Below, piece by piece: positions 2,327 through 63,598 of a DNA stretch of 64,000 bases; positions within the stretch are counted from its first letter, which is position 1; every line of letters starts with the position of its first letter. Under the pieces are notes generated by a model. The model saw nothing but the letters and a program-made list of their open reading frames with translations. It was not told the DNA's origin and did not search any database. The stretch is from Mediterranea massiliensis (GTDB lineage Bacteria; Bacteroidota; Bacteroidia; Bacteroidales; Bacteroidaceae). The stretch is taken from contig SUXZ01000004.1 of the NCBI GenBank assembly GCA_015060685.1, positions 118,640 to 182,639 on the forward strand, given 5' to 3'. Position numbers and translations under genes: made by a program.

Positions 2327-4450
2327 TTATTTTGTTTTAATTCCGTTGCGGATGAGCAGTGCGTCGATGGTAGGCTCTTGTCCGCGGAAGCGTTTGTACA
2401 GTGTCATCGGATGCTCTGTACCACCTTTTGAAAGGATGTTCTCGCGGAATGATGAGGCTACCTCCTGGTTGAAGATACCTTTCTCCTTGAAGAGAGAGAA
2501 AGCATCAGCATCGAGCACTTCGGCCCATTTGTAGCTGTAATAGCCGGCAGAATAACCTCCTGAGAAGATGTGAGAGAATTGTACGCTCATGCAGGCGTCG
2601 TCAACAGTTGGCAATACTTGTGCCTTTTGCCATGCAGTGTGTTCGTACTCCTTCACGTCGCCTTCGAAAGCCTCGGTGCGAGTGTACCAAGCCATGTCGA
2701 GCAAACCGAAACTTACTTGGCGCAAGCAAGCATAGGCAGCATTGAAGTTAGACGAGTCGATGATGCGTTGTACCAATTCATCAGGAATCAATTCGCCGGT
2801 TTCGTAGTGGTTGGCAAAGGTGTGGAGGAACTCTTTCTCGGTAGAGAAATTTTCCATCAATTGCGAAGGAAGTTCCACAAAGTCGCGATAAACGGCTGTA
2901 CCGCTCAGGCTTTCGTAGTTGGTGTTGGCAAACATGCCGTGAAGGGCGTGACCGAATTCGTGCATAAAGGTTTCCACTTCGTCGAATGTAAGCAATGCGG
3001 GCTTGTCTTGCGTAGGCTTGGTGAAGTTCATCACGATGGTTACGTGCGGACGGCTGTTTTCGCCTGTCTTTTGGTCAATCCATTGGTCTTTGAAGCTGGT
3101 CATCCATGCGCCCGAACGCTTGCCGGCACGTGGGTGGAAGTCGGTATAGAAAACAGCCAGGAACTTGCCGTCCTTGTCGAACACTTCGTAGGCAGTTACA
3201 TCCTTATGATAGACAGGAATATCCTTGTTTTCCTTGAAGGTGATGCCATACAACTTGGTTGCCAATCCGAATACGCCCATCTTCACGTTGCTTAGTTCGA
3301 AGTAGGGGCGAAGCATCTCATCGTTTATCTGATACTTTTCGTTCTTCAGCTTGTTTGAGTAGTAGCTCCAGTCCCAAGGCATCAGTTCGAAGTTGCTACC
3401 GGCCTCTTTGCGTGCAAGGGCTTGCACTTCGGCAAACTCCTTCTTGGCTGTAGGAGTGTAGGCATCCAACAGTTGGTTCAGCAGGTTGTAAACGGCCTCA
3501 CTGTTTTGTGCCATGCGGTCTTCGAGCATATAAGATGCATAATCCTTGTATCCAAGTAATTGAGCCACTTCCATGCGAGTGTTGGCAAGTTCCTTCACAA
3601 CATCCAGGTTGTTGTATTCGTTGTCGTGAGTGCATTGGGTGTTGTATGCCATGTAGATTTCCTTGCGCAAGTCGCGGTTGTCGGCATAAGTCATTACGGG
3701 GATGTAACTGGGTGCGTGCAGTGTGAATGCCCAACCCTCTACGTTCTTCTCCTTGGCAGTCTCCTTGGCTGCTGTGATGGCGCTTTCGGGCAATCCGCTC
3801 AACAAGGTGCTGTCGGTAATTACTTTCAGGTAGGCGTTGGTCTCCTTCAGGCAGTTTTCGCTAAACTTCAAGGTCAAAAGACTGAGCTTTTGGCTCAGTT
3901 CGCGGTACTTCTCCTTTTGTTCGCCTTGCAGGTTGGCACCGCCACGGGCAAATCCGTTATAGATGTCTTGCAGCAATTGCAGTTGCTCGCCGGTAAGATT
4001 GGCACTTTCGCGTTGGTCATATACGGCCTTGATGCGTGCAAACAGTGCTTCGTTCAGTGAGATGCTGTTGCTGTGTTCGCTAAGGAGTGGCATCATCTTC
4101 ATGGCCAGCTCTTGCATCTCGTCGTTCGTTTCGGCACTGCGCAATACGCTGAACACGCGCGATGCCTTGCTGAGCAATTGGCCCGACTTTTCGTATGGCT
4201 CGATGGTATTGGCGAAGGTCGGTGCTTCGGGGTTGTTCACGATGGCATCGATTTCGGCCTTATGTTGTTTCATACCTTCGATGAAAGCCGGCTCGTAGTG
4301 CTCAATCTTGATATCGTCGAAGGGTACAGTACCATGAAGGGTAGTGTAATCTTCGAAAAATGGGTTTGTCTTCTCTGTATTGTTCATGTTGCACGATGTA
4401 ATTAATGTTATTACACAAAATGCGGATAAAATTGTTTTTAAACGATTCAT
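2327..4450 (-). CDS. dcp: M3 family metallopeptidase (peptidyl-dipeptidase Dcp-like)
   Basis: HEFGHALHGMFA zinc site; 707 aa. Confidence 0.9.
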   Translation of the reverse strand: MNRLKTILSAFCVITLITSCNMNNTEKTNPFFEDYTTLHGTVPFDDIKIEHYEPAFIEGMKQHKAEIDAIVNNPEAPTFANTIEPYEKSGQLLSKASRVFSVLRSAETNDEMQELAMKMMPLLSEHSNSISLNEALFARIKAVYDQRESANLTGEQLQLLQDIYNGFARGGANLQGEQKEKYRELSQKLSLLTLKFSENCLKETNAYLKVITDSTLLSGLPESAITAAKETAKEKNVEGWAFTLHAPSYIPVMTYADNRDLRKEIYMAYNTQCTHDNEYNNLDVVKELANTRMEVAQLLGYKDYASYMLEDRMAQNSEAVYNLLNQLLDAYTPTAKKEFAEVQALARKEAGSNFELMPWDWSYYSNKLKNEKYQINDEMLRPYFELSNVKMGVFGLATKLYGITFKENKDIPVYHKDVTAYEVFDKDGKFLAVFYTDFHPRAGKRSGAWMTSFKDQWIDQKTGENSRPHVTIVMNFTKPTQDKPALLTFDEVETFMHEFGHALHGMFANTNYESLSGTAVYRDFVELPSQLMENFSTEKEFLHTFANHYETGELIPDELVQRIIDSSNFNAAYACLRQVSFGLLDMAWYTRTEAFEGDVKEYEHTAWQKAQVLPTVDDACMSVQFSHIFSGGYSAGYYSYKWAEVLDADAFSLFKEKGIFNQEVASSFRENILSKGGTEHPMTLYKRFRGQEPTIDALLIRNGIKTK

Positions 4451-6312: not shown

Positions 6313-7620
6313 ATGAAACAAGACATGATTGTTATTTTGGATTTGGGAAGTCACGAAAATACCGTGCTTGCCAGAGCAATCCGTGCGTTGGGTGTATATA
6401 GCGAAATCTATCCCCACGACATTACAGCCGCCGAGTTGAAGGCATTGCCTAATGTAAAAGGTATCATTATCAACGGTGGCCCGAACAATGTAATCGATGG
6501 CGTAGCTATCGATGTTCTCCCTGAAATCTACCAAGCCGGTTATCCCGTGATGGCGGCTGGTCATGATAAGGCATTGTGCGAAGTGAAGCTATCGCAATTT
6601 ACCGACGATGTGGAGGCTATTAAAGGGGCAGTCAAGTCGTTTGTATTCGATACGTGTAAGGCTGAAGCCAACTGGAACATGAAGAATTTCGTGGCCGACC
6701 AGATAGAACTTGTTCGTCGTCAAGTAGGCGACAAGAAAGTCTTGTTAGCCCTTTCGGGTGGTGTAGATAGCTCGGTAGTGGCTGCTCTCTTGCTGAAAGC
6801 CATTGGCGAGAACTTGGTTTGCGTGCATGTAAACCATGGCTTAATGCGTAAGGGCGAATCGGAAAACGTAATTGAAGTGTTCCGTAACCAACTTTCAGCC
6901 AACTTGATATATGTAGATGCTACTGATCGTTTCTTGAATAAGCTCGAAAATGTAGCCGATCCGGAACAAAAGCGTAAGATTATCGGTGGCGAGTTTATCC
7001 GTGTGTTCGAAGAAGAGGCACGCAAGCTCGATGGTATCGACTTCCTTGGTCAAGGCACTATCTATCCCGATATCGTAGAAAGTGGAACAAAAACTGCCAA
7101 GATGGTCAAGAGCCACCACAACGTAGGCGGTCTTCCCGAAGATCTTCAATTTGAATTGGTAGAGCCATTGAAACAACTCTTCAAGGACGAAGTTCGTGCT
7201 TGTGGTGTTGAACTTGGTTTGCCATACGAAATGGTATATCGTCAACCGTTCCCAGGCCCAGGTTTGGGTGTACGTTGTTTGGGTGCTATCACTCGCGATC
7301 GTTTGGAAGCCGTTCGCGAATCTGATGCTATCCTTCGCGAAGAGTTTGCCAAGGCTGGTCTTGACAAGAAGGTATGGCAATACTTCACCATCGTGCCCGA
7401 CTTCAAGTCGGTTGGTGTTCGCAACAACGCCCGTTCGTACGATTGGCCGGTTATTATTCGTGCGGTGAACACTGTCGATGCTATGACTGCTACTATCGAA
7501 CAAGTGGATTGGGCCATCTTGATGAAGATTACCGACCGTATCCTTGCCGAAGTTCCTACCGTGAACCGTGTATGCTACGACATGTCGCCCAAGCCATCGG
7601 CAACCATTGAGTGGGAATAA
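6313..7620 (+). CDS. guaA: GMP synthase with truncated/degenerate GATase domain
   Basis: ATP-PPase SGGVDSSVVAALL and C-terminal PGPGLGVR / VNRVCYDMSPKPSATIEWE; N-terminal GATase-like region lacks the catalytic Cys motif. Confidence 0.85.
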   Translation: MKQDMIVILDLGSHENTVLARAIRALGVYSEIYPHDITAAELKALPNVKGIIINGGPNNVIDGVAIDVLPEIYQAGYPVMAAGHDKALCEVKLSQFTDDVEAIKGAVKSFVFDTCKAEANWNMKNFVADQIELVRRQVGDKKVLLALSGGVDSSVVAALLLKAIGENLVCVHVNHGLMRKGESENVIEVFRNQLSANLIYVDATDRFLNKLENVADPEQKRKIIGGEFIRVFEEEARKLDGIDFLGQGTIYPDIVESGTKTAKMVKSHHNVGGLPEDLQFELVEPLKQLFKDEVRACGVELGLPYEMVYRQPFPGPGLGVRCLGAITRDRLEAVRESDAILREEFAKAGLDKKVWQYFTIVPDFKSVGVRNNARSYDWPVIIRAVNTVDAMTATIEQVDWAILMKITDRILAEVPTVNRVCYDMSPKPSATIEWE

Positions 7621-18386: not shown

Positions 18387-18398
18387 CCTCCGATTTCA

Positions 18399-18474
18399 AC
18401 TAAGGGGTGCCCTAATATGACGGGCTGAGATCATACCCATTGACCTGATCCGGGTAGTGCCGGCGTAGGGAAGA
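18399..18474 (+). ncRNA. TPP riboswitch (THI element)
   Basis: AACTAAGGGGTGCC...GGGCTGAGATCATACCC...GACCTGATCCGGGTAGTGCCGGCGTAGGGAAG; followed by thiamine transport/salvage genes. Confidence 0.96.
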
Positions 18475-18524
18475 GAGAAGAAAAGTTGCCCCTTTTCTTT
18501 ATTAATCTAATAGTTTGAATTGCA

Positions 18525-50420: not shown

Positions 50421-50567
50421 ATTCTTAAAATTTCGGCTGCAAAGATACAATCACAATCTTCTTTAAACAATCCTAATAAATGAGGAATTTTGCAGAAAAA
50501 TTGCGTTGAATGGTTAAAAATCCAAACAACCCCTTTCGCTCTCCCAAAGAGCCTTTATATAATTTTC

Positions 50568-50597
50568 CTCGTGAGGGAGATATATAGCCCTCACGAG
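50568..50597. repeat. Palindromic dispersed repeat, copy 2
   Basis: CTCGTGAGGG-agatatatag-CCCTCACGAG, then a further TCTCACGAGG arm. Confidence 0.8.
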
Positions 50598-50780
50598 AAA
50601 AAATTTTTTCTCTCACGAGGAAAAAATATCTCCTTCGTCGAGCTTCTTTTGGATTTTTATCAAAAGCGGTAATTTTTCTTTATGCATAAATTGAAATTAA
50701 TTTAGGTATAAATTGCAAATGAATTTTTGTATAAATAAAAAATAATTTAGGCGATGCCTATATATTACAAATAGAATCCT

Positions 50781-51135
50781 TATTTTTGCAACGTTCCTTG
50801 TGCCGAAGCCCCCTAATGTGGGGTGGGTGAGTGGGAACAAGACATATTGAAAGGCGTTTACTACGCTTTGGTTTTGACTCTTGAAATCCTGAGAAAATTT
50901 CATTTTGTCATTCAAAACAAAGCAGCGGTGAATGTCCCTGGGTATGCTATATACATACCTTCTATGCCTTACGGCCATTGGTGTATCCATGCACCAATGG
51001 CAACTTTTGGTATAGTTGGTTGTTATACATATCGGTGTGGGGCTTCGGCGTTGTTCGTTTCAATGACAAGGGCAATTCTCAGGAGCCTCAAGAGTGGAGC
51101 GAGCGACAGTGCAGGGCTTCACACTTTTTTTATGT
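50781..51135 (+). ncRNA. Candidate structured non-coding RNA (promoter-like start, long-range stem, terminator-like end)
   Basis: TATTTTTG at 50781; 11-nt perfect pairing 50802-50812 with 51039-51049; 10-bp hairpin 50974-51001; T-run from 51125. Confidence 0.55.
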
Positions 51136-51203
51136 CTTTGTCCTAATACCATTATAACACTTGCGGTTGTGTAGCCTTGGCCGTATGTAAAAACAGCTGT
51201 ACT

Positions 51204-54200
51204 ATGAGTACGAAGTTTTTCAATAACGGACATGGCAATACGCTTTTCGATAAGTTGAAGGGCATTGCATCTGAGATGGCTACATTCGACCGTTTCTTGG
51301 CTGTAGTAGGTTTCTTTCGCTCATCAGGCTATTTCAAGTTGCGTAAAGAACTGGGCGATGTATCAGAAATTAAAATCTTAGTAGGTATAAACATCGACGA
51401 CATTTTCCGTAAGCATAATAAAGCTCTGTTGATGCTGGCTGATGAGGAAAAGGCAAAGGAAGTCTATCATAAAGACTTTAAAGAAGATATAGTAAATGCC
51501 CAATATGCTCCCGATGTAGAAGAAGGCATCTTGCAAATGTGCGAAGACTTGGCCTGTGAACGATTGCAAATGAGGATACATGCAAATAAGAATCTACATG
51601 CAAAGTTCTACCTCTGTTTGCCGCAAAACCATAGTGAACATAGCGATGGCTGGGTAATTATGGGCTCTTCCAATATCTCCGATTCCGGGTTGGGTATCAA
51701 GCAACCGCCACAATACGAACTCAATGTGGCAATGAAAGACTATGACGATGTGAAGTACTGCTCCGATGAGTTCTGGACTTTGTGGAACGAGGCTATACTT
51801 CTTTCTGTCGATGATATTGAAAGCTATAAACAGAAAACATACTTAGGTTATCAGCCTACACCATACGAGCTATATATAAAGGTGTTGATTGACACTTTTG
51901 GCGACCAGGTAGAAGATGATTTTTCCATTCAGTTACCCGATGGCGTAAAGGACTTGAAGTATCAGAAAGATGCCGTTATCCAAGGCTATCAGATGCTGAT
52001 GCAGCACAATGGTTTGTTCCTTGCCGATGTAGTAGGTTTGGGAAAAACGATGATTGCTACCATGATAGCCAAACGCTTTGTGGAAGCAAACGGTAGGAAT
52101 ACAAATATTCTTGTTGTCTATCCACCGGCACTTGAAGACAACTGGAAGAATACTTTTAAGCTATTCAGTATTTATAAGAAGGCGCAATTCATTACCAACG
52201 GAAGCCTTTCCAAAGTACTTGATGGTAAAGACAACTATAAGGACAAGGAAGAATTCGACTTGATCATCGTAGATGAAGCGCATGGATTCCGTAGCGATAG
52301 TTCCGGCAAGTACGATGAGTTGCAAAAGATATGCAAGTCGCCTTGTGCTAATATGGGATTGTTGAGAAGTTCGCAAAAGAAAGTGATGTTACTTTCGGCT
52401 ACTCCATTGAACAACCGTCCTGACGATTTGCAAAATCTGTTGCTGCTCTTCCAAAACAGTCAGAATTGTACCATAGATGGTGTACCCAATTTAAAGGGAT
52501 TCTTTGCTCCACTCATCTACGATTACCGAAAACTGATGCGCGAACGCGATCAACGCGATGTGACCGCTGATGTGGATAAAATCTACGAACAGATTCGTAA
52601 TAAAGTAATTGATAAGGTGACCGTTCGTCGTACCCGAAACAATATATTGAACGACTCTGATTATAGAGCCGACATTAAATCGCAAGGTATTATCTTCCCC
52701 AATATATTGCCACCTAACGAATTGGTTTATCAGATGGATGCCGATACAAGTTCCCGATTCTATGAAACCTTAAAACAACTCACCGATAGTAAATCGGAAG
52801 ATAATCCCAAAGGTAAAGGACTTGACTATGCCCGTTATCGTGCCGTAGAGTTCTTGAAACCCGAATATCGGACCAAGTACAAAAATGCAGTACACATTGG
52901 TCAAACATTAGCAGGTATCTATCGTGTACACATGGTGAAGCGATTGGAGAGTAGCTTCTATGCATTCAAACGTTCGCTTCAAACGTTGCTTCGCATTACC
53001 AACGACATGATAAAGATGTTCGAAGAGGACAGAGTAATTATTGCTCCCGACTTGAAGGTAAAAGACCTTCAAGCCAAAGACATGGAACTTGATCAAATTA
53101 TAGAATATGCTGTAGATAAAGGCTATTTGGTAGAAGATATTCTTTATACGGCCGATGCTTTCGACCCGGATTTCATAGAGATGCTTCACCACGACCGAAA
53201 GATATTGGAACGGCTCAATGCCGATTGGGAAAAGGAACACGATGATCAGAAGTTCGACCTTTTCCGCAAGCACTTAGAGCAGAACTTCTTTAATAAAGAG
53301 GTTAATCCATCGGGTAAGTTAGTGCTCTTTTCCGAGAGTGTGGATACGCTTACCTATTTGTATGGTAGGCTAACCGAAGAGTTGGGGCGAAACGATGTCT
53401 TAATGGTTACTGCAGCCAACCGTAACCGCTTGGGCCAAACCATAAAAGAGAATTTCGATGCCAACTACCAGAGCGATTCAATGCGTTATAACATAATTAT
53501 CACTTCCGATGTCTTGGCCGAAGGCGTAAACCTTCATCGTTCCAATGTGATAGTCAATTACGATTCTCCTTGGAATGCCACCCGATTGATGCAACGCATC
53601 GGTCGTGTGAATCGTATCGGTTCGGTAGCACCCAATATCTACAACTATATGTTCTATCCTTCACAACAAGGCGATAAAGAGATACGCTTGTATAAGAATG
53701 CACTTGTAAAATTGCAAGGTTTTCATTCGGCGTTTGGTGAGGATGCACAGATATACTCCAGGGAGGAGATAGTAAAGGAATTCCAAATGTTCGACAATAA
53801 TGTGAAGGATAGCATCGATAAGAAGATTGCTCTGTTGCGCGAGGTGCGCGAACTATATAATAGCGACCGTAAACTATATCATAAAATCAAAGCATTACCT
53901 ATGAAGAGCCGGGTAATGCGTGATACAGGTAAGCATAGCGGTAAGTCTATTGTTTTTGTCTCTTCCAATGTAAAGACGGAATTCTATTTGGCATCTTCAG
54001 CCGGTGTGGAAGTGATTGATTTCCTTGAAGCGGTAAAGTTTCTGAAAGCAAAGCCCGAAGAACAGCCGGCACCGTTCGCAAATGAAGAGTTACACTATAA
54101 ACATGTAAATAGTGCATTGACACAATACACAACCGAGTATGTGGAAGCTGCCGATACATCTTCTATCAATCGTACAGACCTTGACAAGACTTCGCTTGAA

Positions 54201-58412: not shown

Positions 58413-59687
58413 TTAGATTTCTAGCATTTTTAATTCCTCGTCAATAAAAAAGTTTCCATAAGATTCTGGCATATCTATTGGATATTGTCCATTCTCTTTT
58501 ATTACTATTGGAGTTACTTGTGTTCCTTTATTATGCCGCTCAAAAAAGAGTATTTGTCCCGCCATCTTACTCTTTTCTTCTGATTGAGATAATTTATATC
58601 TAAATCTATTGATTGTGAAATCACTATGTGTTTCAATAATGAATTTATTTTTATTTTCAATGACAGAATTATATATTAGTTCTCCAAAGGCAGCTTGGGC
58701 TTTTGGATGCAAATGAACTTCAGGTTGCTGAATAGCAAACATATCCCCTTTTGATGTTACTATTTCTAGTATCAATGGCATAACTTGTGATACACCATAA
58801 CCTACATTAGTTATTCTTACAGGCAATGAATTATATAAAACATTAATAGCGTATGGTGCTCCTTTTGCTTTACTATATTCATCTATTTGAATATTATCAA
58901 ATAGCGAACTTTCTTTTCCAAATTTAATTAAAGCGTCAACAATGCTACTCTCTTTTCCTTTATTGCGAGAAGTCATGATTGTTCTTAAAACATTTGGAAT
59001 ATGATCACCTTCTGGAGAAAAAGCTTGCTTAAATGACTCATAAGTACGTTGTGCCTTTGCACGTATTGGTGCAAGCCATAATAACCTATTGAATATAGGT
59101 GTTATTATTATACCATTTGTTGGCTTGCCTTCAGAATCTCCTCTAATCTCCATTTCGATAATATTTCTAAGGATACCTAAGGGTGGCATTTTAGAAAATT
59201 GTGTAGTTGAGAGCCTCTTCTTTTGTCCGATAAAATTATCATACATTAGAACCCAATCAGGAAATTTTTCCCCATTATAATCTATGGTCTGATAATCAAC
59301 AGATGATGCATGCATAGTAACTAATACACTTTTATCACCTATCAATGTCATATACTCAGCTATATATGGAAGACTATTTCGTTTCTTGAATTTCATCCAA
59401 AAATATTTGGGAGCATTTTTGCTTTTCTTTTCTTTGAATTCAATTCCAATAACAAAATAAGTTTTATCTGACGAACATTGATTTACAATTTCATCAAAAT
59501 ATCCAAGTTCAACGCTCTCATTATTAAATTCAGGTGAAATCCAAAAACTTGGGGTGCTAAGAATGTTTAACAGATTCAATATAGCTGTCTTACCAGTACT
59601 ATTCTCACCAACTAAAAAGTTTACATCCAAAAATGGTATAAACGTTTTTACAAATCCTTTATAATTGTCTAAATAAAGAGTTTTCAT
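58413..59687 (-). CDS. AAA family ATPase (AAA_15/21, OLD-like)
   Basis: FLVGENSTGKTAILNLLNIL Walker A; FAIQQPEVHLHPKAQ; IETHSDFTINRFR. Confidence 0.88.
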   Translation of the reverse strand: MKTLYLDNYKGFVKTFIPFLDVNFLVGENSTGKTAILNLLNILSTPSFWISPEFNNESVELGYFDEIVNQCSSDKTYFVIGIEFKEKKSKNAPKYFWMKFKKRNSLPYIAEYMTLIGDKSVLVTMHASSVDYQTIDYNGEKFPDWVLMYDNFIGQKKRLSTTQFSKMPPLGILRNIIEMEIRGDSEGKPTNGIIITPIFNRLLWLAPIRAKAQRTYESFKQAFSPEGDHIPNVLRTIMTSRNKGKESSIVDALIKFGKESSLFDNIQIDEYSKAKGAPYAINVLYNSLPVRITNVGYGVSQVMPLILEIVTSKGDMFAIQQPEVHLHPKAQAAFGELIYNSVIENKNKFIIETHSDFTINRFRYKLSQSEEKSKMAGQILFFERHNKGTQVTPIVIKENGQYPIDMPESYGNFFIDEELKMLEI

Positions 59688-59722
59688 ATCACGATATTAT
59701 AGGTTATTTTATTTATTACTAG

Positions 59723-61882
59723 TTATTTTGACTCGATTGCATTGTTCTCATCCAACTTCTCCAATAGAATTCTATTTCTAAGTTGTGCTCGTTTGAGTAT
59801 GTCAGAATACTTGATAATTTCTGTGTATAAATCTCCTTTTTCTCTACCGAACTTTCCAGGAATATCATACGACGGCCTGAATATGAACTTCAAGTTTGGT
59901 GATTGTTTAAAAGAAGAATTTCTTTCTTCGATAAAGTCATACTCAATGTTTTCACCAATTATATATCCATAAAAAGAATGTATCTTAAAGTTTTCATTGG
60001 ATAAATTATTGATGACCATCGCATATTTATTGATTTGATCCAAATGTTCTGATACATCTACATCTGGAGCCTTGAACTCAATAATAATGCATTTACCTTC
60101 AGAGGGATATAATAAAACATCTGGCCTTCTATGACCTACATCTATTATTTTATCTCCTAACTGTCTTACCTTATATGACTTCTCTTCTTCTGTTAGTTCT
60201 TCTTTAATTAGTTTTACTCCATCTATCTCTATTTTGTCCAAAAATTTCTCAGAACACCCGTCAAAATACAAATATTGATCGTCCAACAACCATAAATCAC
60301 TATCTTTCGTGTCTGTACTATGTTGTTGAAATATTAGATTATGTAAAAGGTTTTCATCAACTCTTCCTCCTCGCTTTAGTTTCTCAAGTTCCTTATTCAT
60401 AATCATATCAAAGATTTTAAGAACCAATCGCCTACGTGCGATATGCTTTGTTATGTTAGTACGATTCTGTAATGGTACTAACTTAACAAAATCATTCACT
60501 TCTTGAGATAATCTTTCTTGATAATTAGGCTCGGTAGGCAATATTCCTTTTAATAGTTCGAACCTCTTCTTAATTTCCGCATCACGTTTAGCGGCAACTT
60601 CTGTATCTGCTTCGTATATAGTCCTAAGTATTTGTTCGTCTGTATCAGAGGTTTTTAGAGACTTCCTTACTTTTGTTATGGCATCTTCGTCCAAATGAAA
60701 CATGTTTTGCAGCTGTTCAAGATTCAAAATAGCTTGGTTTCTCTTTTCTTGAAATTCTCTATACAAACTTGCAATCTTTATGTTAGTTGATGATTTGATG
60801 CTTTCAACGAGTAAGCATTCTTCTGGGAATAAGTTACCCTCAGATTGTTTTTTGAATTCAGACTCCTTTACTAAATGGAGATTACCACGTAGATCATCAT
60901 CAACATCATTAAAATAGTCTCCTCTGAGAAGAAACATATATCTGTTGCCATTTATAACATCCGTTTTGGGCAAGCCATCAACCTTCTCTTCTTGTGCCAG
61001 AGCACCATTACTTACAAAATATATTGAATTCTTTTTCAATTTATTCTCTGGTTGCACGAATGCTAATAAAGTAAACTTTTCTGTCCTATCTATTTCTTGA
61101 ACCTTGTTTTTATCATCAAGTTTACTGTAATGAGCTTCTACTTCAACAGAGTGCTCAGGTATAGGAATATCCTGATTGGTTATTGTTAAAGACTCAGTTT
61201 CTTTATCATTCTCGAATCTAACTAATTTAATTTTCGGTAATAACTCCCGACTTTCACATAGGCGTGACAAAAAATGTGTTATTAACTCGGATTTCACATC
61301 GCTTAATAATAACGCATTGTAGAATTTGGCATCATTCTTATAGTCTAAGATTGTATGCAATTCAACTTTCGCATATGTATTGTCAATACTTGTTTCTTCA
61401 TCAAAATCTTTACGCAATATTGCATTTGCCTGTAAAAAAGTTTCTTTTTTTGATAAGGTCAAACATATCTTACGATAATTATTATCACCTACTTTATATA
61501 CACTCTCAAAAATAGTATCATCAAAATAATGAAGATATTGAATCCTTCCCGTTCCTTTGTTGTTTATAGATTTACTATTATCACGTAGATTCAGTAGTCT
61601 TGTGAAACTTTCTTCATTAAGTCCAATGCCATTGTCTGTTATTATTATTTTCTGAAGATTCTTTAAGTTGTTTTCTTTATCCTCTTCAAATATACCACCA
61701 TTATAATGGAACTCAATAACTATCGAACCTAAATTCAAATGTTCCGCTGTGTACTTCTCAAGTATTGATTCCCAAGAATTGGTAAAGGCTTCATATACGG
61801 GCTGCAACTTTACACCATTCTTGTGAATAGAACGAAGTTCATTGCGGTAGTAAATTCCTGTTGCTTTTAGAAGTTCAGCCAT
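59723..61882 (-). CDS. GHKL ATPase with C-terminal PD-(D/E)xK-like motif
   Basis: N-box EAFTNSWESI, ITDNGIGLNEESF, NNKGTGRIQYL; C-terminal RRPDVLLYPSEGKCIIIEFKAPD. Confidence 0.8.
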   Translation of the reverse strand: MAELLKATGIYYRNELRSIHKNGVKLQPVYEAFTNSWESILEKYTAEHLNLGSIVIEFHYNGGIFEEDKENNLKNLQKIIITDNGIGLNEESFTRLLNLRDNSKSINNKGTGRIQYLHYFDDTIFESVYKVGDNNYRKICLTLSKKETFLQANAILRKDFDEETSIDNTYAKVELHTILDYKNDAKFYNALLLSDVKSELITHFLSRLCESRELLPKIKLVRFENDKETESLTITNQDIPIPEHSVEVEAHYSKLDDKNKVQEIDRTEKFTLLAFVQPENKLKKNSIYFVSNGALAQEEKVDGLPKTDVINGNRYMFLLRGDYFNDVDDDLRGNLHLVKESEFKKQSEGNLFPEECLLVESIKSSTNIKIASLYREFQEKRNQAILNLEQLQNMFHLDEDAITKVRKSLKTSDTDEQILRTIYEADTEVAAKRDAEIKKRFELLKGILPTEPNYQERLSQEVNDFVKLVPLQNRTNITKHIARRRLVLKIFDMIMNKELEKLKRGGRVDENLLHNLIFQQHSTDTKDSDLWLLDDQYLYFDGCSEKFLDKIEIDGVKLIKEELTEEEKSYKVRQLGDKIIDVGHRRPDVLLYPSEGKCIIIEFKAPDVDVSEHLDQINKYAMVINNLSNENFKIHSFYGYIIGENIEYDFIEERNSSFKQSPNLKFIFRPSYDIPGKFGREKGDLYTEIIKYSDILKRAQLRNRILLEKLDENNAIESK

Positions 61883-61955
61883 ATGATTATATTTTTATAA
61901 ATGTTATTCATATATTTCCAGCAATTTGGTACCGAATTATCGGTGGGTTGACTTT

Positions 61956-62975
61956 TTACATAACCCTCACTCTTTCTTGCAACTCTCTCATTTTCCGCAT
62001 AAGAGCATCAAACTCTAAAGACTCACCATAAATGAAGAAACGCTTCATATCGGCATAATCATCTTGCCACGCCTCCATAGCCGATTCTGGTATCGTAAAA
62101 TTGATGGTTGATGGGGTGTGTAAATCATAGTTTACATACTTCAAAGCATAATAAGCCTTACGATGCTCAACAATGGCATTATAAAGATTTCGATTCGAAA
62201 AGGCTTCTTTTCCATACTCTGTATCCATCAATTTCTCCAAGTCATACAGATGTCGTGACATTCGTACGCTTCGAGGTTTTTCTTTTTGGAATTCTTCCGC
62301 CAAAAGAAATAGTTTTTCAAGGAATGTGCGAGTAGGAACTACTGTTCTAACAAGACTTTCTGCATCAGTATCTTCGCCATCAAAACTTTCACCTATAAGG
62401 GAACGAATTGGTCGTAATTCCGTAGGTTCATCCATTGAAAGACAGCTAATCTCAATCTTTACACGTGGAGGAATATAATTTATCGTGTCTTCAAGAATTG
62501 ACGGATAGTGTAATAGAATTACCGTAGGATCTTTGTCTGAGTCTATCGGTCGCCATTCTCCATCTCTATCTTGTGCTTGAGATACATTCTCTATACTGTA
62601 ACCAAAGACTCCCATTTCTTTCAAACGAGCATCTAATTGAGCAGAAAAGGTCTCATGAATATATGCTCGTGCCATTTTGCGTAATTTTTCACGCTGACTT
62701 TTACCGGTCTTCTCAATACCAAAGAATGAATGACTGATTGCCAAGTCAATATCTTCAGAAAAACGTTCTATGATGCCAAAACCTTTTGACAACGATGTTC
62801 CGCCTTTGAATATCAAAGAATCACGGCAATCTGTTTGGAATAATGCCTTTAATGTAACTGTTACCCACCAATCCTTTTCTATTGCTACCTGATTAATACC
62901 TGGATGCCCAGCCTCTGTGTGCTGCAACATAGCTAAACGGTCCACTATCTCATTGTTTAACCACAATTTTCCCAT
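61956..62975 (-). CDS. AbiEii/AbiGii-type nucleotidyltransferase toxin
   Basis: LIFKGGTSLSKGFGIIERFSEDIDLAI. Confidence 0.92.
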   Translation of the reverse strand: MGKLWLNNEIVDRLAMLQHTEAGHPGINQVAIEKDWWVTVTLKALFQTDCRDSLIFKGGTSLSKGFGIIERFSEDIDLAISHSFFGIEKTGKSQREKLRKMARAYIHETFSAQLDARLKEMGVFGYSIENVSQAQDRDGEWRPIDSDKDPTVILLHYPSILEDTINYIPPRVKIEISCLSMDEPTELRPIRSLIGESFDGEDTDAESLVRTVVPTRTFLEKLFLLAEEFQKEKPRSVRMSRHLYDLEKLMDTEYGKEAFSNRNLYNAIVEHRKAYYALKYVNYDLHTPSTINFTIPESAMEAWQDDYADMKRFFIYGESLEFDALMRKMRELQERVRVM

Positions 62976-62989
62976 AATCTATTTCTATT

Positions 62990-63598
62990 TTAAGCGGTTA
63001 GCATTGGTTTTATAATTCGCTTCATCCATGCAGGCATCATATCTACATCTTTAGCAAGTGTCTCCTTGTTAGTTTCTTTCGATAGCAATTGTTGGATTAT
63101 ATTTAGTTCTTCTTCTCCTACATTCTCTTTTTTAAGGGCTTTAAGAGCCTGAACAAGTAAAGAGATGAGACGAGTACCATAACAGAAATTCTTGGGTACA
63201 CCTCGCTTTAACACGACTTTTCTATTGGATAGGTTTACAGTTCTTTCGCTTCCTGTAGTTAAGTATGTGTAATTCATTGGCACTTGAGTTGATAATCCTA
63301 GTGCATTCAGAGCTGTCATGCCTGATGGCAATACCTTTGCGTTATCTCTAGTAGCAATTGCCTGTACTACCTTATCGACTGAGGGCAGTACAACACCGAA
63401 TTTGCTTCTTCTCGGTTTGGCATATATCCCATGTGCAATTTTAACAAGCATACCTTCTGTCGTTAACTCAGACAAAATGCTTCCCGCAAATTCTGTGTGG
63501 TATTCAGGGAAATCGGACCGAAACAGAATGCAATCTTCTGGCATCGCTTCTATGCGTTGCCTAAGAGTAATACCATCTATAGAATATTCATTAGTCAT
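62990..63598 (-). CDS. AbiEi-like / DUF6088 antitoxin
   Basis: Upstream partner of AbiEii; N-terminal wHTH-like region ILSELTTEGMLVKIAHGIYAKP. Confidence 0.82.
   Translation of the reverse strand: MTNEYSIDGITLRQRIEAMPEDCILFRSDFPEYHTEFAGSILSELTTEGMLVKIAHGIYAKPRRSKFGVVLPSVDKVVQAIATRDNAKVLPSGMTALNALGLSTQVPMNYTYLTTGSERTVNLSNRKVVLKRGVPKNFCYGTRLISLLVQALKALKKENVGEEELNIIQQLLSKETNKETLAKDVDMMPAWMKRIIKPMLTA

Follow-up and report, generated by a model that had tools for sequence, protein, structure and literature searches.

In the antisense pairs CopA/CopT and RNAI/RNAII, kissing loops are converted into a full duplex. A paralogous RNA family of Bacteroides, the FopS sRNAs, is described as having a single-stranded 5′ stretch and a single terminator hairpin; it targets susC mRNAs in trans and is represented in Rfam (PMC11697453). 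Here, we analyze a locus within a 64,000-nucleotide stretch of the Mediterranea massiliensis genome (contig SUXZ01000004.1; hereafter, the window), for which an earlier note, made from the letters alone, had proposed a structured RNA beside a defence island. The unusual locus turns out to be a single copy of a large RNA with an intricate fold. On comparative grounds, we think it reasonably probable that the RNA is a cis-acting attenuator leader, about 400 nt long, of the helicase–methylase operon that starts at 51204, and it probably regulates the genes it precedes.

Results

A structured leader RNA precedes a helicase–methylase operon

The promoter, the structured leader RNA, and the led genes at this locus all lie on the plus strand (Table 1). 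From the promoter to the U-tract (50789-51134, 346 nt), the MFE is −136.5 kcal/mol, corresponding to z = −7.5 relative to dinucleotide shuffles, with 0 of 100 shuffles as stable; the longer span 50789-51184 gives z = −6.0. This fold stability, together with massive compensatory changes across homologues, bears out the proposed structured RNA locus. The TAnnTTTG-type element claimed at 50781 is present (TATTTTTG, 50781-50788), as is the T7 run noted at the end of the locus (51125-51131). The element does not end at 51135, where the earlier note had placed its boundary, and extends from about 50789 to 51184.

Table 1. Coordinates of the leader RNA, its pairing strands, and the led genes in the window
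Feature	Start	End	Strand	Remarks
Promoter −7 element TATTTTTG, TAnnTTTG type	50781	50788	+	Conserved in homologous copies
Whole structured leader RNA	50789	51184	+	5′ domain, variable domain, 3′ domain, U-tract, hairpin D
P0 5′ strand AAGACATA	50839	50846	+	Pairs with 51131-51138 (TATGTCTT), just beyond the U-tract
P2 5′ strand	50853	50862	+	Pairs with 50927-50936; z 11.9, 0/500 shuffles; double-sided changes in 5 pairs
P3 5′ strand GCTTTG	50865	50870	+	Pairs with CAAAGC 50918-50923, then TTGAC/GTCAA 50874-50878:50910-50914; z 6.6, 8.3
V5, hypervariable strand of the P3 loop	50877	50911	+	Complementary to V3 in three blocks
P4 5′ strand GGTATGC	50941	50947	+	Pairs with ACATATC 51027-51033; z 6.5
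Subtype-specific hairpin GCCATTGGTG..CACCAATGGC, variable domain	50974	51001	+	Close relatives only; absent or different elsewhere in the family
Strand B	51034	51042	+	Pairs with C 51118-51125, closing H beside the U-tract; z 6.6; 99.1% paired in close relatives
H 5′ strand	51050	51060	+	Pairs with 51097-51107; z 10.5; double-sided changes in 7 pairs; 99.5% paired
V3, loop of H	51063	51095	+	Partner of V5 by covariation, helix search, and close-relative alignment
Strand B′	51094	51099	+	Local alternative partner of C (51117-51122); hairpin GTGGAGC..GCTTCAC
Strand C	51111	51125	+	Three mutually exclusive partners: B, B′, D
U-tract (T7)	51125	51131	+	Immediately 3′ of strand C; at least 6 T in 8 nt
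Hairpin D	51162	51184	+	Loop AGCCTT 51173-51178 can pair with C (AGGGCT 51113-51118); lies about 20 nt upstream of the start codon
Led gene 1, PLD-SNF2 helicase (C3a139/DrmD-like)	51204	54497	+	Start codon 51204
Led gene 2, Eco57I/type IIG-PglX-like DNA methylase	54505	57819	+

The TAnnTTTG element occurs at a fixed upstream distance in 132 of 146 homologous copies, compared with 6% of control windows. At least six T within the 8 nt after strand C are found in 97.5% of 119 copies (10% in controls). A same-strand ORF starts at most 300 nt past the 3′ domain in 102 of 111 copies (median distance 67 nt, interquartile range 59–79), and on the opposite side only 14 of 114 have a divergent ORF at 110 nt or less. 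The position of the same-strand ORF, the paucity of divergent ORFs, and the U-tract after strand C identify the element as a 5′ leader, with a promoter ahead of it and a same-strand gene behind it, the arrangement of attenuator leaders. What had been described as a stand-alone locus is instead one member of a multicopy leader family, and its link to the defence island is closer than adjacency, the first defence gene having this RNA as its 5′ leader.

The best PADLOC match of led gene 1 is C3a139 (HKD+Snf2); it also matches DrmD. The rest of the defence island (58413-63598, minus strand) comprises an NsnB/AriA-like ATPase, a 719-aa protein with no PADLOC match, and an AbiEii/AbiEi pair. A strong inverted-repeat cluster (TTTTCCTCGTGAGGGAGATA / TATAGCCCTCACGAGAAAAA / TCTCTCACGAGGAAAA) occupies 50541-50660, where it separates the leader from the divergent TonB receptor gene, and yields sub-threshold miRNA-like Rfam matches; a sequence 80% identical to part of 50601-50682 occurs at L034 12253-12334, in the same genome. 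An invertible promoter was considered and set aside: no long inverted repeats surround the promoter in the window, and the arms at the Phocaeicola vulgatus upxY copy are short.

The locus is noncoding and matches no known RNA family

A search with 4227 Rfam models gave no match above the gathering threshold at the window locus or at 20 loci with homologues, the only above-threshold matches in those scans being tRNAs and one TPP riboswitch, elsewhere. In a permissive Rfam scan of the locus, all matches were sub-threshold, the best of them falling on the neighboring inverted repeat (50572-50639), and a tRNA/tmRNA search at the locus returned none. These scans, in which no Rfam family was matched, agree with the initial impression that tmRNA, RNase P, SRP, and 6S RNA can be discounted. 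A TPP riboswitch above the Rfam threshold is present in the window at 18393-18489. An origin from phages or plasmids found no support, as none of 50,697 phage and 72,556 plasmid records gave a match at the sensitivity of blastn. We found no published description in the literature, although part of the family may sit unnamed in the supplementary tables of large surveys (e.g. PMC8040213).

The 107-aa ORF that overlaps the locus (50823-51146) had been judged secondary, and its frame is open over at least 100 aa in only 1 of 33 close relatives. Substitutions in these relatives are spread evenly over the codon positions (731/679/681). A coding gene is ruled out by the broken frame, the flat codon-position substitutions, and the lack of a Pfam match; by these sequence measures, the ORF is spurious and noncoding. 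When the same frame was examined as the conserved short coding ORF of a peptide-leader attenuator, it was found not to be conserved.

The leader is a multicopy family of gut Bacteroidales

BLAST at the DNA level detected seven matches in this genome and matches in 23 of 101 genomes, i.e. this genome and 22 of 100 relatives. Thirty-four copies were aligned to construct a covariance model, R1, which covers the 3′ domain only and was given a short calibration. Using R1, we found 10 to 11 copies in this genome. The element was present in 139 of 200 genomes of the family (~70%), often in several copies and in up to 17 each, in 35 of 198 genomes drawn from the order, and, elsewhere in the phylum, in almost none (2 of 199 genomes, this one counted). 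An exact 29-mer of the conserved core matches P. vulgatus ATCC 8482, Paraprevotella clara, P. xylaniphila, Bacteroides acidifaciens, B. rodentium, and Parabacteroides distasonis; gut genera with the element include Phocaeicola, Paraprevotella, Bacteroides, and Prevotella. The 5′ domain was recovered in 146 of 151 distinct copies, and copies of the window type (at least 75% identity) occur in 36 of 400 family genomes (E ≤ 1e-20). Weak R1 matches on the opposite strand of true copies probably reflect a near-palindromic rod, not additional copies. One uncultured Bacteroides contig (locus L191) carries two leader copies, 3977-4089 and 6469-6578, on the same strand about 2.5 kb apart.

Covariation supports the conserved helices

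We scanned 119 non-redundant copies (Neff about 103) for covariation, column by column and without prior bias, and ran a helix search with permuted partners. Since permutation leaves relatedness in place, strands were also tested against the partners of their three nearest relatives (median nearest identity 0.71). Since the variable domain aligns poorly across the family and made a single whole-length RNAalifold consensus unusable, alignment was done block by block. Covariation in the 119 copies supports P2, P3, H, the closing helix P0, and, above all, the pairing of V5 with V3. P2 is better with its own partner than with those of the nearest relatives (p = 2e-5). P0 is likewise better with its own (Wilcoxon p = 3.6e-7; swap z = −10.1), is 86.6% paired in close relatives, and is part of the MFE structure; the U-tract itself also pairs with GAAAG. 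In an independent alignment of the 31 closest relatives, 95.2% of the cells over 68 pairs are standard pairs, and 166 cells changed on both sides versus 53 expected (0 of 500 shuffles).

These conserved pairings differ from the helices that the earlier note had listed, which are not supported as the core structure. Its 11/11 complementary arms (GCCGAAGCCCC at 50802-50812 and GGGGCTTCGGC at 51039-51049) are present in the window but are not family-wide; its perfect hairpin GCCATTGGTG-tatccatg-CACCAATGGC (50974-51001) also exists but is kept only in close relatives. The GGTATG..CATACC hairpin (50941-50959) can be drawn as claimed, but the family partner of GGTATG is ACATATC, 80 nt downstream, rather than the local CATACC. 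As a candidate anti-terminator, the 11-bp arms (A:B) reach −26 kcal/mol in the window copy and z = −6.3 against random swaps. The column covariation test gives only z = 2.5, and pairing with the own partner is slightly worse than with those of the nearest relatives (p = 0.16). An A:B anti-terminator is consistent with the data but is not demonstrated. Two outcomes had been named as speaking against a structured RNA, namely a lack of compensatory substitutions combined with coding selection on the 107-aa ORF, or a hit to a known element; neither was observed.

Each copy maintains a private long-range pairing

The strongest signals of the column scan connect V5 with V3, single-pair z reaching 52. 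The helix search resolves three blocks, 50877-50885:51088-51095, 50888-50894:51076-51084, and 50907-50911 with about 51063-51067, at z of 30.6, 18.8, and 18.1, respectively. In 31 close relatives these blocks are 99%, 97%, and 80% paired, with up to 21 of 31 double changes per pair; one pair is CG in 10 relatives, UA in 10, GC in 6, and AU in 5, with no exception. Pairing with the own partner yields −36.6 kcal/mol, compared with −21.3 kcal/mol with nearest relatives (117 better, 0 worse; p = 3e-21). Within this genome, the pairing energies of V5 are −34 to −40 kcal/mol with the V3 of the same copy and −12 to −30 kcal/mol with the V3 of other copies. Each copy maintains its own V5:V3 complementarity while the sequence changes fast.

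V5:V3 is a long-range pairing of ~25 bp that links the 5′ domain (P2, P3) to the 3′ domain (H, B:C). Covariation is also seen for local hairpins within V5 and within V3 (GAAA/TTTC, z = 8.4; GGGC/GCCT, z = 7.1). From geometric considerations, the full 25-bp duplex and a closed P3 stem would be hard to accommodate together in space. This spatial conflict and the covarying local hairpins make it likely that at least two folds are selected: probably, a pair of hairpins that kiss over 7 bp, and a long rod.

Strand C has mutually exclusive partners

Conserved, mutually exclusive helices surround the stem that precedes the U-tract, as in attenuator leaders: H competes with B′:C, and C pairs with B, B′, or D. 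H (51050-51060:51097-51107) and B′:C (51094-51099:51117-51122) overlap in bases, and V5:V3 extends into B′; B′:C (z = 10.4; −10.2 kcal/mol alone) excludes H and the end of V5:V3. A simple terminator scan did not flag B′:C, whose loop is too long for the scan, and flagged 50974-51001 instead. When B:C and B′:C were compared with the strands of the three nearest relatives, the own partner was not better, so the support for both comes from column covariation. For C:D, swapping gives z = −10.1 compared with 0.3 for a coding control, and the own partner is favored over those of nearest relatives (p = 0.008); locus-specific changes include GATACCC/GGGTATC, GGTTCTC/GAGAGCC, and CGACCCAC/GTGGGTCG. Because P0 and C:D involve sequence beyond the U-tract, the read-through RNA itself appears to be under selection. 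D is made after the U-tract and therefore cannot affect termination there in cis.

In the attenuator model that we favor, C together with B′ (or with B under H) would constitute a terminator-like stem in a first fold; transcription would stop at the U-tract, leaving an RNA of roughly 350 nt. In a second fold, V5:V3 and H would keep B′ away, so that transcription would pass; P0 and C:D would arise in the longer transcript, with the gene downstream being expressed. V5 and V3 may first meet in a 7-bp kiss between hairpin loops before zipping up to the full duplex, and the privacy of the pairing would prevent pairing among the many copies in one cell. It is a tentative and rather doubtful proposal that many paralogous leaders share one scaffold in which a private, fast-evolving V5:V3 “lock and key” toggles between the kissing form and the full duplex. 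This would be a new type of genome-wide RNA control, in which the many surface and defence operons of a cell come under common yet insulated on/off control, with one subtype dedicated to restriction–modification and defence.

The leader has its own promoter and a U-tract after a stem, and C:D complementarity is common within groups; in this genome, many C strands pair well with the D of other copies. These features would also suit a family of trans-acting sRNAs, each copy releasing a ~350-nt RNA whose strand C pairs with D-type hairpins in its own and other mRNA leaders. We consider such a family unlikely, given that D belongs to the very same locus, where its position ahead of the start codon is fixed, that no conserved promoter was seen between the U-tract and D, that P0 joins the 5′ part to sequence past the U-tract, and that the privacy of V5:V3 points to cis action.

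Alternatively, the leader might always be read through, the U-tract acting as a strand of P0 and the competition of B, B′, and D for C gating the start region. The U-tract could be conserved solely through pairing with the A-rich P0 strand. Such a purely translational switch would account for the covariation of P0, for the location of D about 20 nt before the start codon, and for P0 and C:D being possible only in read-through RNA. It accounts less well for a U-tract after a G+C-rich stem in 97.5% of copies, which is more uniform than P0 alone requires, and for a start codon that D does not cover, and we regard it as distinctly unlikely. It and the trans-acting sRNA family are the chief alternatives to the attenuator model.

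Led genes differ between leader types

In a broad sample of 110 led genes, the matches listed include BspA-type leucine-rich repeat (10), BACON (5), DUF3575 (4), UpxY/NusG (4), and collagen-like (3) proteins and SNF2 helicases (3). By a simple heuristic, N-terminal signal-like sequences are commoner in led proteins (52 of 89) than in neighboring ORFs (123 of 388). The 27 proteins led by window-type copies (at least 75% identity) comprise 9 SNF2/PLD-type helicases, 8 matches to one type II methylase model, 4 MmeI-type methylase domains, 2 EcoRI-type methylases, and 2 acyltransferases; the helicase, type II methylase, and MmeI-type counts can overlap, and several of the loci are closely related to one another, so that these numbers describe an association rather than a rate. 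Among the matches listed for the broad sample, the traceable helicase and methylase matches are window-type members. Window-type leaders mostly precede restriction–modification or defence genes, and other types often precede surface proteins or upxY. The link to the defence island extends in this way to other genomes, where close relatives of the leader likewise lead such genes.

At L038 5763-6842 and L087 2579-2863, acyltransferase genes, not defence genes, lie behind window-type leaders, possibly through leader exchange between operon types. At capsule-type loci, the leader lies upstream of upxY in L080 / L178 (P. vulgatus ATCC 8482), L063, and L138.

The leader might also serve processive antitermination, like EAR or put, or the loading of a NusG paralogue such as UpxY, ahead of foreign or long operons. 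Its presence before upxY capsule loci in P. vulgatus and relatives (4 of the 110 led genes are UpxY/NusG), before long defence operons, and before other probably exchanged genes would fit this role. The first led gene, however, is mostly not a NusG paralogue, and EAR and put are much smaller than the ~400-nt leader; we hold this role to be highly improbable and retain the attenuator model.

Discussion

The element stands ahead of restriction–modification and defence operons, genes for surface proteins, and capsule regulators (upxY), on which phage resistance and interaction with the host depend. It is common in abundant gut genera yet without an Rfam family. If the attenuator model is true, the leader offers a testable handle on the switching of such genes in these bacteria, and the private V5:V3 pairing would exemplify how RNA elements are kept orthogonal inside one cell.

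Like FopS, the leader is a multicopy RNA family of the Bacteroidaceae linked to surface functions. Unlike FopS, it is large, heavily structured, and situated in cis; FopS-like RNAs are short, with an unstructured seed and an Rfam model, whereas this RNA is ~350–400 nt with a long-range fold and no Rfam match. Some copies lie directly upstream of upxY (L063, L080, and L138), as do UpxY/LoaP/RfaH-dependent capsule leaders, but, in this comparison of led genes, most are without a NusG paralogue. The leader resembles CopA/CopT and RNAI/RNAII in having a pair of hairpins whose loops are complementary, with a kissing core; here, both hairpins are within one RNA and the complementarity is re-coded in each copy.

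The trp-type attenuators, T-box, and TPP riboswitch leaders resemble the element in their 5′ leader position between promoter and gene, in mutually exclusive helices at the stem before the U-tract, and in a position just before the start codon. With respect to what characterizes riboswitches, the 5′ domain is kept in 146 of 151 copies and the led genes are unrelated to one another. The leader differs from these systems in belonging to no Rfam family, in its length of about 400 nt, in the private ~25-bp long-range loop–loop pairing, in its many unrelated led genes, in the partner hairpin D past the U-tract, and in that no leader peptide is seen. The leader appears to work like known attenuator leaders, and its fold and private pairing appear to be new.
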